Below are positions 47,384 through 60,692 of a stretch of 64,000 bases of DNA, one piece after another (positions within the stretch are counted from its first letter, which is position 1; every line of letters begins with the position of its first letter). The DNA is taken from positions 1 to 64,000 of the forward strand of contig JAMWCD010000012.1 of the NCBI GenBank assembly GCA_023818965.1. Direction: 5' to 3'. Below the pieces are notes generated by a model. The model did not search any database, was not told the DNA's origin, and saw only the letters and a program-made list of their open reading frames with translations. The DNA is from Candidatus Omnitrophota bacterium (lineage in GTDB: Bacteria; Ratteibacteria; UBA8468; B48-G9; DTJG01). The translations under genes were made by a program, and so were the position numbers.

Positions 47384-47872
47384 ATGGAAAAGAAATTGCA
47401 TGAAGCAATGAATGAGCAGATCAAGAATGAGCTTTATTCTGCGTATCTTTATCTAAGTATGGCTGCATGGTGTGAGGAAAAAAATTTTCCTGGAATTGCA
47501 CACTGGCTTAAGGTTCAGGCAAAAGAAGAAGTAAGTCATGCCATGAAATTTTTTGATTTCATGGTTGATGTTGGCGCAAAAATTCAGTTGCTTGCCATAG
47601 AAAAACCACCTTCAGATTTTTCATCGGTTACAGATATCTTTGAAAAAACACTTGAACATGAAAAAAAGGTGACATCCCTGATTAATAATCTTGTTGACCT
47701 TGCAAAAAAGGCAAATGATAATCCTGCAACACTGATGCTTCAATGGTTTGTCAATGAACAGGTGGAAGAGGAAAAAAATGCCCTGCATATTCTTGAGACA
47801 TTAAAGATGATAAAGGACCAGGGTCCTGCACTTGTAATGCTTGACAGGGAACTTGCGAAAAGAGAAGGGTAA
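47384..47872 (+). CDS. ftn: ferritin (FtnA type)
   Basis: A 162-residue non-heme ferritin. The four-helix bundle has ferroxidase ligands in NELYSAYLYL (Glu), KEEVSHAMKF (ExxH) and the later LEHEKKV and NEQVEEEK segments. It stores iron and removes ferrous ions. A strong AAAGGAGG ribosome site precedes the ATG. The next gene, 37 bases away, is a second ferritin-like protein. Confidence 0.93.
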   Translation: MEKKLHEAMNEQIKNELYSAYLYLSMAAWCEEKNFPGIAHWLKVQAKEEVSHAMKFFDFMVDVGAKIQLLAIEKPPSDFSSVTDIFEKTLEHEKKVTSLINNLVDLAKKANDNPATLMLQWFVNEQVEEEKNALHILETLKMIKDQGPALVMLDRELAKREG

Positions 47873-47909: not shown

Positions 47910-48389
47910 ATGGAAAGAAAAGGAATAAAAATTATTAAGGCAGATATTAAAGAAATTGTTAAGCAATTGAACAAGGCACTTTCTGACGAATGGCTTGCTT
48001 ATTACCAGTACTGGCTTGGAGAAAAACTTGTGAGAGGGAAATTCAGGGAAGAAGTCGCTGCAGAACTTGGCCAGCACGCAGGTGATGAACTGAAGCATGC
48101 TGGAATGATTGCTGATAGAATCATACAGCTTGGTGGTACTCCTGTTTTAAAACCAGAGGAATGGTACAAACTTACAAATTGTGGTTATGATGCTCCAGAA
48201 GACCCAGATGTAATACCGATTCTTAAACAGAATATCAAGGGTGAACAGTGCGCAATAGAAGTTTATCAAAAACTTGCTGAAATGCTCAAGGATAAAGACC
48301 CTATCACTTACCTGATGGTACTTTCAATCTTAAAGGATGAAATTGAACACGAGGATGATTTAATTAATATCCTTGAGGACATTCAATAA
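47910..48389 (+). CDS. Dps-like ferritin (DPSL/thioferritin-like)
   Basis: A 159-residue ferritin-like four-helix protein. Iron ligands appear at Glu27 (SDEWLAYYQY), Glu60/His63 (DELKHAG), Glu112 and Glu144/His147 (DEIEHEDD). Two cysteines, C91 (TNCGYDAP) and C114 (GEQCAIE), sit where the DPSL/thioferritin group has a cysteine pair beside the ferroxidase centre. Those proteins use peroxide to oxidise iron and protect anaerobes from oxidative stress. A bacterioferritin-like role is the alternative. GGGAGGA precedes the start. Confidence 0.75.
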   Translation: MERKGIKIIKADIKEIVKQLNKALSDEWLAYYQYWLGEKLVRGKFREEVAAELGQHAGDELKHAGMIADRIIQLGGTPVLKPEEWYKLTNCGYDAPEDPDVIPILKQNIKGEQCAIEVYQKLAEMLKDKDPITYLMVLSILKDEIEHEDDLINILEDIQ

Positions 48390-51709: not shown

Positions 51710-51738
51710 TTGACAACTATACTGGGGTAGTGTATGAT
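51710..51738 (+). promoter_or_regulatory. csoR promoter, leaderless, with operator in the spacer
   Basis: A perfect TTGACA (51710-51715) and TATGAT (51733-51738) are spaced by 17 bases. The -10 ends 6 bases before the csoR ATG (51745), so the transcript would start at or next to the start codon; there is no ribosome site. The spacer carries TACTGGGGTAGTG, a G-run flanked by ACT/AGT. This resembles operators of the CsoR/RcnR family (known RcnR site: TACT-G6-N-AGTA). Confidence 0.65.
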
Positions 51739-51744
51739 TACAAT

Positions 51745-52023
51745 ATGATAGATGAAAAACTAAAAAAAGAAATTATACCAAGAATTAGAAAGGTAAAGGG
51801 CCAGATCGAAGGAATTGAAAGAATGGTTAATGATAAGAGATACTGCGTAGATATCTTGCAGCAAATATATGCAATTATTGGTGGGTTAAAGGTCATCTCG
51901 CTGATGATATTAAAAAACCATATAGACACCTGTGTGAAGAAATCGATAACTTCAAAAAACAAAGGGGAAATAGAAACAAAGGTGGATGAACTTATTGAGA
52001 TATACAAAAGATTTTTAAAATAA
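51745..52023 (+). CDS. csoR: CsoR-type copper-sensing repressor
   Basis: A 92-residue all-helical repressor of the CsoR/RcnR/FrmR family. Copper ligands C34 (RYCVD), H59 and C63 (NHIDTC) have the same spacing (25 and 4) as Cys36-His61-Cys65 of Mycobacterium CsoR, so Cu(I) is the likely inducer. RIRKVKGQIEGIERMV is the family N-terminal signature. ATG 51745 is chosen over the TTG at 51664 by family length and promoter position. It heads the copper-efflux operon and probably represses itself and the genes downstream. Confidence 0.9.
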   Translation: MIDEKLKKEIIPRIRKVKGQIEGIERMVNDKRYCVDILQQIYAIIGGLKVISLMILKNHIDTCVKKSITSKNKGEIETKVDELIEIYKRFLK

Positions 52024-52105: not shown

Positions 52106-52384
52106 ATGAAAAAATTAATCTTAACGGGTCTATTTATAATTTCTTCAAGTGTTCTCTTTGCACAGGCATGTCGTTCTTGCAGTTCACAGGATATGAAGCA
52201 AGAAAAAGAATGTGATTTTTCAAAGATAGGAAATTATATGATTTGTCCCGTGACAAAGGAAAAATTTCAGGCAAATGAAAAGTCAGAAAGTAGTGAGTAT
52301 AAAGGGAAAATTTATATCTTCTGCTGCCCAATGTGTAAAGGGAAGTTTGAAAAAGAGCCGGAAAAATATATGAAAGGTAAGTAA
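52106..52384 (+). CDS. secreted YHS/TRASH metal-binding protein
   Basis: A 92-residue exported protein with a signal peptide (1-21, cut near AQA). A short Cys-containing linker (CRSCSSQDMKQEKEC) and a YHS/TRASH-like domain (about 46-90, ICPVTKEKF and FCCPMCKGKFEKEPEKY) follow. Such domains bind copper or related soft metals. ATG 52106 follows AAGGGGGTG. Co-location with csoR and the efflux genes suggests a periplasmic copper scavenger or chaperone. A second YHS domain lies two genes downstream. Confidence 0.75.
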   Translation: MKKLILTGLFIISSSVLFAQACRSCSSQDMKQEKECDFSKIGNYMICPVTKEKFQANEKSESSEYKGKIYIFCCPMCKGKFEKEPEKYMKGK

Positions 52385-52385
52385 A

Positions 52386-52574
52386 ATGATTTATCGGTAC
52401 ACAAAGATAACAGGATACATTTCATATATCTTTCTTGTTTTGACTTTTATTTATGGTATAACCGGTATAAATTTTTTTGTTCATAAAATTTTAGGGATAA
52501 CAACAGTATTTTTTGCTTCTTTACATCTATTCTTTAACATTAAAAAGAATCTGAAAATCAGGAGGAAAAAATGA
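52386..52574 (+). CDS. 62-residue two-helix membrane protein
   Basis: A very small membrane protein with two hydrophobic helices (about 7-28 and 34-52) and a basic tail. His33 and His47 (HKILG and SLHLFFN) are spaced 14 residues apart, like heme or metal ligands in the second half of cytochrome b561/DUF4405-like proteins. It starts 2 bases after the preceding stop, with an AAGGTAAG ribosome site, and overlaps the next gene by 4 bases, so it is translated as part of the copper operon. Function unknown. Confidence 0.6.
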   Translation: MIYRYTKITGYISYIFLVLTFIYGITGINFFVHKILGITTVFFASLHLFFNIKKNLKIRRKK

Positions 52575-53062
52575 AAAGGATTATTATTTTCTTGTTCCTA
52601 TTTGTTTCTCTTCTTTTCCCAGCCGTTCATAAACATCCGGAAGAAAAAAACAATTATGGTTTATGTCCCGTACTTGCAGAACCTGCGTCAAAGGAATTCT
52701 CCTATGAGTACAAAGGTAAAAAATATTATTTTTGCTGTCAAGATTGTGTTGAAAAATTCAAAAAAGCACCTGAAACATATATATCAAGAATAAAAGAAAT
52801 AAAGATTGAGGCATTCCAATTTGGATATCTCCCAGAAGTTATAAAGGTTAAAAAGGGAGATATCGTCAGGATTATGCTTACAACGAGAGATGTTCCACAT
52901 GGTTTTATGATAAAAGAATATGGGATTGATGTAAAGGTTAAAAAAGGAGAAAAAAAAGAGTTTGAATTTCTTGCAGATAAAAAGGGAGAGTTTGATATTA
53001 TATGTTCTGTTTATTGCGGTAAAAATCATTCAAAGATGAAAGGAAAGTTAATTGTTGAATAG
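52571..53062 (+). CDS. secreted YHS domain fused to CuA-type cupredoxin
   Basis: A 163-residue exported protein with a signal peptide (about 1-18), a YHS-like domain (30-72, LCPVLAEPA and FCCQDCVEKFKKAPETY) and a cupredoxin domain (78-163). The cupredoxin has H110 (DVPHGF), C145, C149, H153 and M156 (CSVYCGKNHSKM). These ligands and their spacing, including 35 residues from the first His to the first Cys, match the dinuclear CuA site of cytochrome oxidase subunit II. No oxidase genes are near. It sits in the copper operon, so copper binding or reduction is likely. Confidence 0.8.
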   Translation: MKRIIIFLFLFVSLLFPAVHKHPEEKNNYGLCPVLAEPASKEFSYEYKGKKYYFCCQDCVEKFKKAPETYISRIKEIKIEAFQFGYLPEVIKVKKGDIVRIMLTTRDVPHGFMIKEYGIDVKVKKGEKKEFEFLADKKGEFDIICSVYCGKNHSKMKGKLIVE

Positions 53063-54395
53063 AATAGGAAAATTTTTTATATTTATTTTGGTCATAACTC
53101 TTACAGGGTGTTCTTATTTTTATTCTGACAGACAAAAAACAAAAGAGAAAGTTATTGAGAAAAAAAAGGAGATCGAAGGTCTTGAAGGTATTTATAGACC
53201 CAAAGGAGAAAGACCAAAATTGCCCTTACTTGATGAGAATTCGGATATCTCTGATTTTATTAAATATGCCATATTAAACAATCCAAAAATTGAAGCAGAA
53301 TTTTATTCCTGGAAAGAAGAAGTTTATAAGCTTGCTTCTGAAAGATTTCTTCCTGAACCAAAAATTTCTTTTGAAGGAACAATAAATTCTATTTTAAAAG
53401 AATTAATGGTTGGGATTATGTTTATGTTTCCGAAATCAGAAAAAATTCCATTATCTATTGAATTATATTCCCTTGAGGTAGAAAAGAAAAGATTGAACTT
53501 TGAGTATGAGATATTGAAAACAATTTATAAGGTGAAAAACATATCTTACAGATATTATCTCATTGAGAAAAAGATAAAATTTGTCGAGAAAATTATAAAT
53601 CTCCTTGAAGAAATTGAAAAAATAAATATGTCAAAATTAAAAGTTGCAAAGGCCTCTGAAAAAGATATATTGAAAATACAGATTGAAAAGGAGCAGATGA
53701 AAAATATGCTTTTGGATATGATTGATAGTAAAAATTATATTTTGAGAGAATTTGCATCAGTTCTCGGAATTCCACCTGAGGAGAAAATACCAGAACCACC
53801 AGGAAATTTGAAATTTACAGAAGGAACATTCTCAGAAACAGAAGTATGGAAGATTGTCAAGGATAAAAATCCAAAACTATCAATACTTGAAAAAGGAATA
53901 AAACAGGCAGAAATCTTTATTAAAATTGCTTATAGAGAATATTATCCGGAAATGGAAACAGGGATTATGAGAAACTTTTTTTCATCAATGATAATAACAA
54001 AACCCTTTATAGCATTATCATTGCCATGGCGAGAGAAGGTACAATATCAAATTCGTTCAACAGAAAGTACTTTAAAAGTTGAAAAGGCAGAATATTCATC
54101 GGAATTACTCGATCTTGCTACTGTTTTATCTGAAGCACTTTTCAGATGGCGACAGGCAAACAGAGAGAAAAATCTCTATGAAAAAATTCTTCTCCCAAAG
54201 GAAGAATCAGTATTTTATTTAACAAAATCAAATTATATAACAGGCCTATCAGACATAGATGAATTTTTGATTTCAGAAAAAAATTATTATGAATTTAACA
54301 TAAATTATCTTTCAGCCGTTGTTTTAAGAGAGATAACATTAAATGAGATATCCCTTACAATTGCAGGAATAATGCCCGAAGACATATGGAGATAA
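53052..54395 (+). CDS. TolC-family outer-membrane efflux lipoprotein (CusC-like)
   Basis: A 447-residue lipoprotein with a lipobox at residue 20 (TLTGCSYF) and long helical, coiled-coil-prone stretches typical of outer-membrane efflux channels. It would form the outer exit of a tripartite copper pump with the next two genes. The start is TTG at 53052, or possibly TTG 53055, overlapping the end of the CuA gene; AGGAAAG lies just upstream. Its sequence is diverged, so the call relies on helical pattern, lipobox and context. Confidence 0.78.
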   Translation: MLNRIGKFFIFILVITLTGCSYFYSDRQKTKEKVIEKKKEIEGLEGIYRPKGERPKLPLLDENSDISDFIKYAILNNPKIEAEFYSWKEEVYKLASERFLPEPKISFEGTINSILKELMVGIMFMFPKSEKIPLSIELYSLEVEKKRLNFEYEILKTIYKVKNISYRYYLIEKKIKFVEKIINLLEEIEKINMSKLKVAKASEKDILKIQIEKEQMKNMLLDMIDSKNYILREFASVLGIPPEEKIPEPPGNLKFTEGTFSETEVWKIVKDKNPKLSILEKGIKQAEIFIKIAYREYYPEMETGIMRNFFSSMIITKPFIALSLPWREKVQYQIRSTESTLKVEKAEYSSELLDLATVLSEALFRWRQANREKNLYEKILLPKEESVFYLTKSNYITGLSDIDEFLISEKNYYEFNINYLSAVVLREITLNEISLTIAGIMPEDIWR

Positions 54396-54397
54396 AT

Positions 54398-55714
54398 ATG
54401 CAAAGGAAAATCATTTTTATAATTTCTTCTTTTATTCTTCTTATAATCCTTATTTCATTTACAAATACAAAAATAAAAAGACAGGAAAATAAAGAAAGGG
54501 AAAAAACGACCGAAGTGAAAGGAGAACAAAAGAAAAGAATACTTTTCTGGACATGCAGTATGCATCCTCAAATAAAACTTCCTGCTCCTGGAAAATGTCC
54601 CATTTGTTTTATGGATTTGATTCCTGTTTATGAAGAGAAAAAAGAAGATATTTCAGAGATTAGATTTACCAATGAAGAAAGAAAAATCGCTGAAATTGAG
54701 ACAGTTCCAGTTTCTTATAGACATTTAAATGTTGAAATAAAATTGCTTGGAAAGGTTGAGTATGATGAGACACAAATTTCAAATATTTCTGCTTATATAC
54801 CAGGGAGAATCGAAAAACTTTATGTTAATTTTATAGGAGCAAGAGTTGAAAAGGGAGAGAAACTTTTTCAGATTTATAGTCCTGATGTTTATACATATCA
54901 GGAAGAATACCTTGTATCTCTTAAGCGGTACAAGGAAGCGGTCGAGAGAAAAGAAACTTCTTCTATAAATTCTGAAAAAGAAATACTTGAATCAGTTAGA
55001 AAGAAACTTTTACTTCTAGGTTTATTACCCTTTCAAATTGATGATATAGAAAAGAAAGGAGCCCCTTCAGATAAGGTTGATTTTTATTCTCCATCTTCTG
55101 GTTTTATCATTGAAAGGGATGCCTATGAGGGTAAATATATCAACACAGGAGATATTTTGTTTAAAATAGCTGATATTAAAAAGGTCTGGATTAAACTTGA
55201 TGTCTATGAGAAAGATATTCCTTTTGTAAAAATTGGTCAGAATGTTGACATACTCTGTGAGGCATATCCTGAAAAAATATTTAAGGGAAATATAATTTTT
55301 ATAAACCCATTTCTCGATGAAAAAACCAGAACCATAAAAGTGAGAATTGAGATAGATAATCCAAAAGAGGAGTTGAAACCCGGTATGTTTGCCCATGTTT
55401 TTTTGAAATATCATCTTGGTAGAAAATTGAGTATCCCGTATACATCGGTCCTTTTAACCGGAAAAAGAGCAGTTGTTTTTGTTGAGGAAGAACCAAACCT
55501 CTTCCGTGTGAGAGAGGTTGTGATAGGTCAAAGGGCAGGTGATTTTTATCCTGTTATAGATGGTTTAAAAGAGGGTGAAAGAGTTGTTAAAAAAGGGAAT
55601 TTTGTCATTGATTCAACATTACAGATAAAAGGGAAAGAAAGTATGATGAAGATTATGTCTGGAGAAAAAGAGAACATTGAATTTGAAAGTCCGATGAGTG
55701 TACATCATCATTAA
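54398..55714 (+). CDS. cusB: CusB-like periplasmic adaptor with heavy-metal-binding domain
   Basis: A 438-residue membrane-fusion protein. It has an N-terminal membrane anchor (about 4-22). A heavy-metal-binding domain follows (50-78, WTCSMHPQIK with CPICFMDLIP). The lipoyl/barrel and beta domains come next (IPGRIEKLYV, GFIIERDAYEGKYI and the C-terminal VVIGQRAGDFYPVIDGLKEGE). It ends MSVHHH. It links the RND pump to the outer-membrane channel and may pass copper ions. ATG 54398 after GGAG is preferred over an in-frame ATG 12 bases earlier. Confidence 0.88.
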   Translation: MQRKIIFIISSFILLIILISFTNTKIKRQENKEREKTTEVKGEQKKRILFWTCSMHPQIKLPAPGKCPICFMDLIPVYEEKKEDISEIRFTNEERKIAEIETVPVSYRHLNVEIKLLGKVEYDETQISNISAYIPGRIEKLYVNFIGARVEKGEKLFQIYSPDVYTYQEEYLVSLKRYKEAVERKETSSINSEKEILESVRKKLLLLGLLPFQIDDIEKKGAPSDKVDFYSPSSGFIIERDAYEGKYINTGDILFKIADIKKVWIKLDVYEKDIPFVKIGQNVDILCEAYPEKIFKGNIIFINPFLDEKTRTIKVRIEIDNPKEELKPGMFAHVFLKYHLGRKLSIPYTSVLLTGKRAVVFVEEEPNLFRVREVVIGQRAGDFYPVIDGLKEGERVVKKGNFVIDSTLQIKGKESMMKIMSGEKENIEFESPMSVHHH

Positions 55715-59768: not shown

Positions 59769-60692
59769 ATGGGAAAGATATATGAAGATATTACTAAGAC
59801 AATTGGTAATACGCCGCTGGTCAGATTAAACAGGATAACCAGAGGCGTAGTAGCAGAAATAGTAGCAAAGATTGAGTCCTTTAATCCCTTATCCAGTGTC
59901 AAAGACAGAATTGGTATTTCAATGATAGAAGACGCAGAAAAAAAGGGTTTGATTAAAAAGGACACAATTATTGTTGAACCAACTAGTGGCAATACCGGCA
60001 TTGCTCTTGCTTTCGTATGCGCAGCGAGAGGATACAGATTAATTTTGACTATGCCAGAAACAATGAGTATGGAAAGAAGGAAATTACTTCAGGCATTCGG
60101 TGCTGAATTGGTCTTAACTCCAGGAAGTGAAGGAATGAAAGGCGCCATTAGAAAAGCTGAAGAGATTGCAAAGGATAATCCAAATGTTTTTATGCCCCAG
60201 CAGTTTAAAAATCCTGCTAACCCTAAGATTCATAGAGAAACTACTGCTGAGGAAATCTGGAGAGATACTGATGGCAAAGTGGATATATTAGTTTCTGGTG
60301 TAGGAACTGGCGGGACAATTACAGGGGTTGCTGAAGTAATTAAAAAAAGAAAGCCTGAGTTTAGAGCCGTAGCTGTTGAACCAAAGGATTCTCCAGTTCT
60401 TTCTGGTGGAAATCCAGGCCCACATAAGATACAGGGCATTGGAGCAGGATTTGTACCGGATGTATTAAGGACAGATTTGATAGATGAGATTATACAGGTC
60501 AGCTACGAAGATGCTGCTGAAACATCAAGAAATTTGGCTAAGGAAGAAGGAATTCTGGTAGGTATATCATCAGGTGCTGCGGCATGGGCAGCCATTCAGA
60601 TTGGTAAAAGGAAAGAAAATAAAGATAAACTTATTGTTGTGGTATTACCTGATACTGGGGAACGATATCTATCTACAGAATTGTTTAAGTAA
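59769..60692 (+). CDS. cysK: cysteine synthase (O-acetylserine sulfhydrylase)
   Basis: A 307-residue PLP enzyme that makes cysteine from O-acetylserine and sulfide. Lys45 in SSVKDR binds [15 protein letters not shown] binds substrate, [11 protein letters not shown] binds the PLP phosphate, and the C-terminal DTGERYLST is typical. The ribosome site is CCAGGAGAAG. It heads a sulfur-assimilation group with metY, metX and metW. Confidence 0.93.

Follow-up and report, generated by a model that had tools for sequence, protein, structure and literature searches.

A candidate copper-handling protein with fused YHS and CuA-type domains in a CusCBA-type efflux operon

A YHS–CuA gene in a predicted copper-efflux operon

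The window (that is, the whole analysed stretch of 64,000 nucleotides from contig JAMWCD010000012.1 of a Candidatus Omnitrophota bacterium) contains a run of genes, all on the forward strand, in the order csoR, YHS, 62-aa two-helix protein, YHS–CuA, outer-membrane efflux protein (OEP), CusB and CusA (Table 1). CusA, CusB and the OEP stand together with a copper regulator, the arrangement that marks a Cus/Czc RND operon. An earlier note on this DNA had placed csoR and CusABC-like genes around the fusion gene, and Pfam searches bear this out (csoR, OEP, CusB with its HMBD, and CusA); the note had left out the small YHS gene and the two-helix gene. The adaptor also matches the NCBIfam CusB subfamily (E 1.4e-48), and the repressor matches the RicR-like family (E 2e-17, under the family cut-off) and scores below the equivalog cut-offs. 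The YHS–CuA open reading frame is preceded by the ribosome-binding site AGGAGG and shares 4 nt with the gene before it and 11 nt with the gene after it, overlaps that suggest co-translation.

Table 1 Features of the predicted copper-efflux operon in the window
Feature	Position	Strand	Basis
Promoter-like site TTGACA-17-TATGAT, directly 5' of csoR	51710–51738	+	consensus scan, 11/12 matches
CsoR-family metal-sensing repressor	51742–52023	+	PF02583, E 3.7e-24
Small secreted YHS protein	52106–52384	+	PF04945, E 1.9e-11
62-aa protein, two predicted membrane helices	52386–52574	+	hydropathy
YHS–CuA fusion, 163 aa, secreted	52571–53062	+	ORF, Pfam, PDB phmmer, AlphaFold2
YHS metal-binding cysteines C32 (52664–52666), C55 (52733–52735), C59 (52745–52747)	52664–52747	+	sequence
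CuA ligands H110 (52898–52900), C145 (53003–53005), C149 (53015–53017)	52898–53038	+	sequence/structure alignment
CuA ligands H153 (53027–53029), M156 (53036–53038)	52898–53038	+	sequence/structure alignment to T. thermophilus ba3
CusC-like OEP	53052–54395	+	PF02321, E 3.1e-18; TTG start overlaps YHS–CuA end
CusB-like periplasmic adaptor with N-terminal HMBD	54386–55714	+	PF16576, E 7e-72; PF19335 (HMBD), E 3e-11
CusA/CzcA-family heavy-metal RND pump, 1230 aa	55724–59416	+	TIGR00914, 764 bits against cut-off 701

The promoter-like site comes from a scan of the region that returned 48 sites where 39 were expected, and such sites are as a class not significant; a likeness of its spacer (ACTATACTGGGGTAGTG) to CsoR-type operators was seen by eye only. 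The small YHS frame could start at GTG 52097, but ATG 52106 better suits the ribosome-binding site AAGGGGG. The 62-aa protein carries H33 and H47, 14 residues apart, and has a weak match to Ferric_reduct (E 0.027, under the cut-off); such a histidine pair would suit a dimeric heme-b protein, and the protein possibly binds heme b. Convincing homologs of it were not found in the phylum, where the matches were weak and several contained stops. An Rfam search of the window returned no match.

Ferritin-like and rubrerythrin/bacterioferritin-like genes (47384–47872 and 47910–48389), recognized from sequence only, lie a few kilobases upstream, and a cysteine-synthase (cysK) homolog (59769–60692) lies 350 nt 3' of cusA. 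Counting also those at L012 3076–3993, L009 5925–6890 and L024 6114–7052, cysK homologs are found close to all three YHS–CuA loci (8.4 kb 5' in genome G029; directly 5' of the locus on contig L012) as well as to the L024 CuA gene. This proximity is possibly a link between thiol supply and copper stress.

The predicted CuA site and the YHS domain

The fusion described in the earlier note is recovered by Pfam as a YHS domain (PF04945, residues 40–72; E 3.7e-12, 46.5 bits against a cut-off of 30.3) N-terminal to a CuA-type cupredoxin domain, and a signal-like N-terminal helix, present in both sequence and model, agrees with the proposed secretion. The profile searches that the note had recommended match Cupredoxin_1 over residues 73–162 (E 2.8e-11) and COX2 (PF00116) over residues 68–157 (E 1.1e-7, CuA domain only), both over the curated cut-offs. 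Among proteins of known structure, the top phmmer matches are the CuA domains of Thermus thermophilus ba3 oxidase (2lln/2cua; E ~6e-14), to which residues 77–162 align without a gap, including H110, C145, C149, H153 and M156; the Thermus equivalents (H114, C149, C153, H157 and M160) are offset by +4 at every ligand. The separation of 35 residues between H110 and C145 is that of the Thermus domain, and the pattern His...Cys-x3-Cys-x3-His-x2-Met is matched in sequence and in superposition. V147 occupies the Glu/Gln position between the two cysteines, at which the CuA ligand is a backbone carbonyl.

An AlphaFold2 model built with 20 homologs (mean pLDDT 91) has a cupredoxin fold. Residues 71–163 superpose on residues 75–167 of the T. 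thermophilus-based CuA domain 6pty (Z 15.9, 0.9 Å, 93 residues), and the best Foldseek match is 2cua (E 6.5e-11, 0.9 Å over 91 columns). The model is metal-free, and the ligand geometry is read from the superposition. The earlier note's claim of the CuA ligand set and spacing holds in both the gap-free alignment and the model, and the structural modelling that it had proposed as a check brings all five side-chain ligands onto those of the Thermus site, in a superposition of 0.9 Å over ~92 residues. Judging from this predicted structure, the C-terminal domain very probably holds a two-copper CuA site.

The YHS cysteines, spaced C32-x22-C55-x3-C59 and kept in four of four YHS–CuA copies, are spaced as C181/C204/C208 in the YHS domain of a mycobacterial adenylyl cyclase, a probable copper sensor (PMC4626032). 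The fourth ligand of that domain is D178 or Cys, three residues before the first cysteine (PMC4626032); the window protein has Y29 there, and its relatives have no conserved Cys or Asp at the position. The cyclase precedent speaks for a periplasmic copper sensor that would signal to a regulator through its YHS domain, but CsoR is already the cytoplasmic sensor of the operon and neither the protein nor the operon contains a kinase or transmembrane signalling domain; we regard such a sensor as very unlikely.

No respiratory partner in the genomes searched

CuA is regarded as a respiratory electron-transfer centre, and the protein could be envisioned as an orphan respiratory subunit (that is, a fragment of COX2 or N2O reductase whose oxidase or NosZ partner is encoded at another locus). 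Its domain scores to the CuA regions of L-NosZ, NosZ and CoxB would allow this, as would the state of the genome that contains the window (1.38 Mb, only 65% complete). However, the best NCBIfam domain match, L-NosZ (E 3e-20), reaches 72 bits against a cut-off of 700 and covers only the CuA end of the NosZ models, and CoxB (TIGR02866) reaches 45.5 bits against 147.7, again with the CuA part alone matched. Because both full-length models miss their cut-offs widely, YHS–CuA is not a member of either family.

COX1 (PF00115) had no match in the 65%-complete genome itself, in 35 genomes of the phylum (16 of them at least 90% complete with low contamination; controls as expected) or in the seven genomes whose CuA gene has Cus, RnfD-like or copper genes as neighbours (G025, G029, G041, G252, G254, G295 and G335). 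The earlier note had seen no oxidase nearby and had asked whether one might be encoded elsewhere; its observation now extends to the whole of the available genome and the phylum. A tblastn search of the genome likewise found no second CuA protein at E<=0.1. Together with the failed full-length models, a separate position in the tree (see below) and a YHS fusion inside a Cus operon, these results, which for the source genome cover 65% of its content, lead us to reject an oxidase or NosZ partner, and the orphan subunit is the least probable of the explanations that we considered.

Recurrence beside Cus genes

The earlier note had also suggested a search for recurrent neighbourhoods, and YHS–CuA genes do lie beside CusBA in two further genomes (G029/L013 and L012). 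In G029, from the same phylum, a tandem pair of YHS–CuA genes precedes the genes for OEP, CusB and CusA. The CuA ligands are complete in the second copy; the first (L013 7456–7938, the same gene as L005 920–1405) has Arg in place of the first His and is also without the second Cys and the second His. It has thus lost three of the five ligands, while its YHS cysteines and the equivalents of C145 and M156 are kept. This degenerate copy is a natural test of whether the YHS half functions alone. On L012 (MAG BP5.bin76, from another phylum) the order is YHS–CuA, NQR2/RnfD-like, CusB, CusA, and this is the only genome with a YHS–CuA fusion among 241 sampled from its phylum; that sample also yielded the unfused CuA loci of G295, G254 and G252 described below.

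Unfused CuA genes occur at three further Cus loci (G025/L017, G295/L081 and G335/L093). In G025 (L010/L017), again from the same phylum, the order is CsoR, YHS, OEP, CuA, NQR2/RnfD-like, CusB, CusA, with YHS and CuA as separate genes. The five-ligand set is complete in every Cus-linked member except the degenerate G029 copy. In G008, from the same family, a related CsoR–OEP–CusB–CusA operon (L109 4016–10198) has neither YHS nor CuA, which argues that such pumps can do without the CuA protein and that it is an optional accessory; in G018 and G027 the contigs stop short of the region upstream of cusB/cusA.

Searches found no viral homologs of YHS–CuA and no plasmid homologs covering 80% of the query; the plasmid matches were to the CuA domain only, mostly Thermus ba3 COX2, with Ilyobacter in addition. 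Small CuA-type proteins of varied kinds are found in Omnitrophota-labelled MAGs, Woesearchaeota, Acidobacteriota, Elusimicrobiota, Thermodesulfobacteriota and Ilyobacter. The earlier note's statement that CuA sites outside oxidases and N2O reductase are rare is therefore too strong, and one report already gives DPANN examples (PMC10936187). Two woesearchaeal contigs carry paired CuA lipoprotein genes (L014 7836–8288 and 9153–9626; L015 8001–8444 and 9341–9784), with one gene, encoding a weak YcdB/YcdC-like domain, between the members of each pair; these genomes have no COX1 match.

A short NQR2/RnfD-like neighbour

A short NQR2/RnfD-like gene directly follows the CuA gene in five genomes (G025, G041, G295, G254 and G335). 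Three of these have adjoining Cus genes: for example, G295 encodes CuA and then the RnfD-like protein, with YHS, OEP, CusB and CusA. A fourth, G335, has CusB, OEP and YHS within ~6 kb. G025, G041, G295 and G254 were found through CuA; G335 was found through the RnfD profile and is for that reason independent. When 388 genomes were searched with this profile, four matches were strong (E<1e-70); three of these had contributed to the profile, and the fourth, G335, was new. The weaker matches (E 1e-23 to 1e-33) had no CuA neighbour. As most of the five RnfD-like proteins helped to build the profile, the count of five is partly circular. The pairing suggests a redox partner.

The short family (L010 4018–4785, L012 4730–5587, L081 6081–6854, L084 6628–7425, L093 6930–7688, L052 8556–9461 and L060 6494–7252) has invariant HxFNPA and EPKT motifs and is encoded next to cupredoxins in both bacteria and DPANN archaea; on the DPANN contigs L052 and L060 the nearby cupredoxin is without the CuA cysteine pair. 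The L012 member falls under the Pfam cut-off (E 0.0025) yet clearly matches the short-clade profile. A stretch of ~40 residues between the RnfD halves is skipped in these proteins, and a search for a flavin-attachment motif in them found none, which together make their redox competence uncertain. The window operon has no RnfD-like gene, and PF03116 was not found in its 65%-complete genome. Elsewhere, on L097 (5413–8148), an NQR2/RnfD-like membrane domain is fused to a long C-terminal region that by eye resembles FG-GAP/ASPIC-type repeats.

Proposed role in periplasmic copper handling

Since the six loci have Cus genes in common and the searches gave no respiratory partner, we propose that YHS–CuA handles copper beside the Cus pump. 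We consider it highly probable that it serves the pump by handling periplasmic copper, rather than serving respiration, and, somewhat less firmly, that the protein would be secreted as an accessory to a copper-efflux operon of the CusCBA type under CsoR control, in a lineage lacking heme-copper oxidases. As to the metal of the pump, the evidence consists of the CusB-subfamily match and the HMBD, alongside the CsoR/RicR-like regulator with its scores under the equivalog cut-offs. Against the accessory reading, the degenerate G029 copy has been kept despite the loss of most CuA ligands.

In the mechanism that we envision, the YHS domain and the free-standing YHS protein would capture copper arriving in the periplasm, and the CuA domain, as a two-copper redox-active site, would take over the copper and/or one electron and keep or pass copper as Cu(I), the form exported by Cus pumps, towards the HMBD of CusB. 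In the relatives, the electron may be exchanged with the short NQR2/RnfD-like membrane protein encoded by the adjoining gene; in the window, the 62-aa two-helix protein may occupy a similar place.

Whether the site relays electrons or passively hands over copper is a choice between readings of close to equal likelihood, neither of which we would put at quite even odds. As an electron relay, CuA would link an inner-membrane NQR2/RnfD-like (or other) redox protein with periplasmic copper, acting as an O2-independent cupric reductase or cuprous oxidase. The RnfD-like neighbour favours such a setting of copper valence through a redox-active CuA over simple holding and passing. Pointing in the same direction, CuA in G252 adjoins a multicopper oxidase and a ferric-reductase-like FAD/NAD protein, and a plasmid of the anaerobe Ilyobacter polytropus carries a CuA cupredoxin in a copper island of multicopper oxidases, an HMA protein and heavy-metal sensors. 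CuA sites elsewhere transfer electrons and hold their copper tightly, and tight holding would fit poorly with quick hand-over. The relay, however, has to contend with the window operon itself, which is without the RnfD-like gene, as well as with the missing flavin-attachment motif and the partial circularity described above.

As a passive buffer or chaperone, the CuA fold would serve only to bind Cu(I) and deliver it to CusB in place of CusF, with no electron transfer. Consistent with this possibility, no CusF-like ORF was found among the operon proteins scanned, the operon encodes a second YHS protein besides the fused YHS domain, and the degenerate L013 copy retains the YHS cysteines and not the CuA ligands. 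There is also a precedent in CupA of Streptococcus pneumoniae, a cupredoxin-fold copper chaperone with a binuclear Cu(I) site that serves an efflux pump (PMC7558416); it appears as a weak PDB match (E 8e-5). Yet the five-ligand set in all other Cus-linked members exceeds what a simple holder needs, and the repeated pairing with a redox-type membrane family would be left over.

A broader extension of the relay is that oxidase-less bacteria have wired CuA, YHS-linked or stand-alone, to the short NQR2/RnfD-like protein and so set copper valence for CusCBA without oxygen. We offer this as a speculative and rather unlikely generalization; if true, the CuA–RnfD module would be the anaerobic equivalent of detoxification by multicopper oxidases, and CuA would have a use outside respiration.

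Relation to known systems

Of the known CuA domains, that of ba3 oxidase subunit II (T. thermophilus, 2cua/1ehk) shares the fold, the five side-chain ligands and their exact spacing. In contrast to that subunit, YHS–CuA is soluble and secreted, has no oxidase membrane helix and no COX1, is fused to YHS and falls in a separate clade; compared with clade II/III (Sec-dependent, L-type) NosZ, it is without the propeller and CuZ, is shorter (163 aa against 480–580) and again falls in a separate clade. The DPANN 'nosZ-like' CuA proteins are likewise small and extracytoplasmic, without CuZ, and belong to oxidase-less organisms (PMC10936187). The accessible portion of that report describes other neighbours and neither a YHS fusion nor a Cus operon, and given its examples the broader stand-alone CuA group is not new.

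PmoD/AmoD proteins, offered in the earlier note as a parallel, likewise have a CuA-type centre outside oxidases and N2O reductase and are linked to copper genes. The parallel is not a good one: the PmoD site lies at a homodimer interface and uses other ligands (Cys41/Met49/His51, in Cx7MxHxnC), and the protein has a C-terminal membrane helix (PMC6189053). Both motif and helix are absent from the YHS–CuA sequence and model, and membership was rejected.

In its proposed role as donor to an efflux system, YHS–CuA resembles CupA and also CusF of Escherichia coli, which supplies CusB with copper; the copper sensitivity of cus mutants shows mainly when oxygen is absent (PMC7558416). The proteins themselves differ: CusF has an OB fold with Met/His/Trp ligands, and the two-copper site of CupA is not a two-His/two-Cys CuA. 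The CopI/plastocyanin-like copper-tolerance proteins are periplasmic cupredoxins as well, induced by copper (PMC7558416); YHS–CuA has a trace score of 14 bits against 280 for the CopI model of NCBIfam, and no CuA motif is recorded for CopI. In the literature searched, with few subscription journals covered, we did not find the YHS–CuA fusion, its Cus setting or the RnfD pairing, and, with those journals thinly covered, no paper contained both 'YHS domain' and 'CusA' or both 'cupredoxin' and 'RnfD'.

A CuA protein belonging to a copper-efflux operon in oxidase-less genomes would show the CuA site at work in metal homeostasis, and YHS–CuA would bear on the origin of the CuA domains of oxidases and N2O reductase. 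It would also be a candidate for the means by which oxygen-poor bacteria control the valence of copper where Cus pumps face the periplasm.

Phylogenetic position

In a maximum-likelihood tree (48 domains, 89 columns), in which the deep branching among stand-alone CuA proteins lies beyond the resolution, the three intact YHS–CuA fusions and the degenerate copy form one group (89/87) outside the ba3 COX2 (99/98) and NosZ (100/98) clades. The nearest others are the woesearchaeal CuA lipoproteins and the Cus/RnfD-linked CuA proteins. The simplest reading of these sequence relationships is that the fusion may have arisen once, followed by transfer between phyla or by loss. Among the NosZ sequences, that of L036 (labelled Chryseobacterium) groups with Bacillaceae NosZ and is near-identical to that of Cytobacillus L033 over the part compared; L036 is probably a mislabelled genome.
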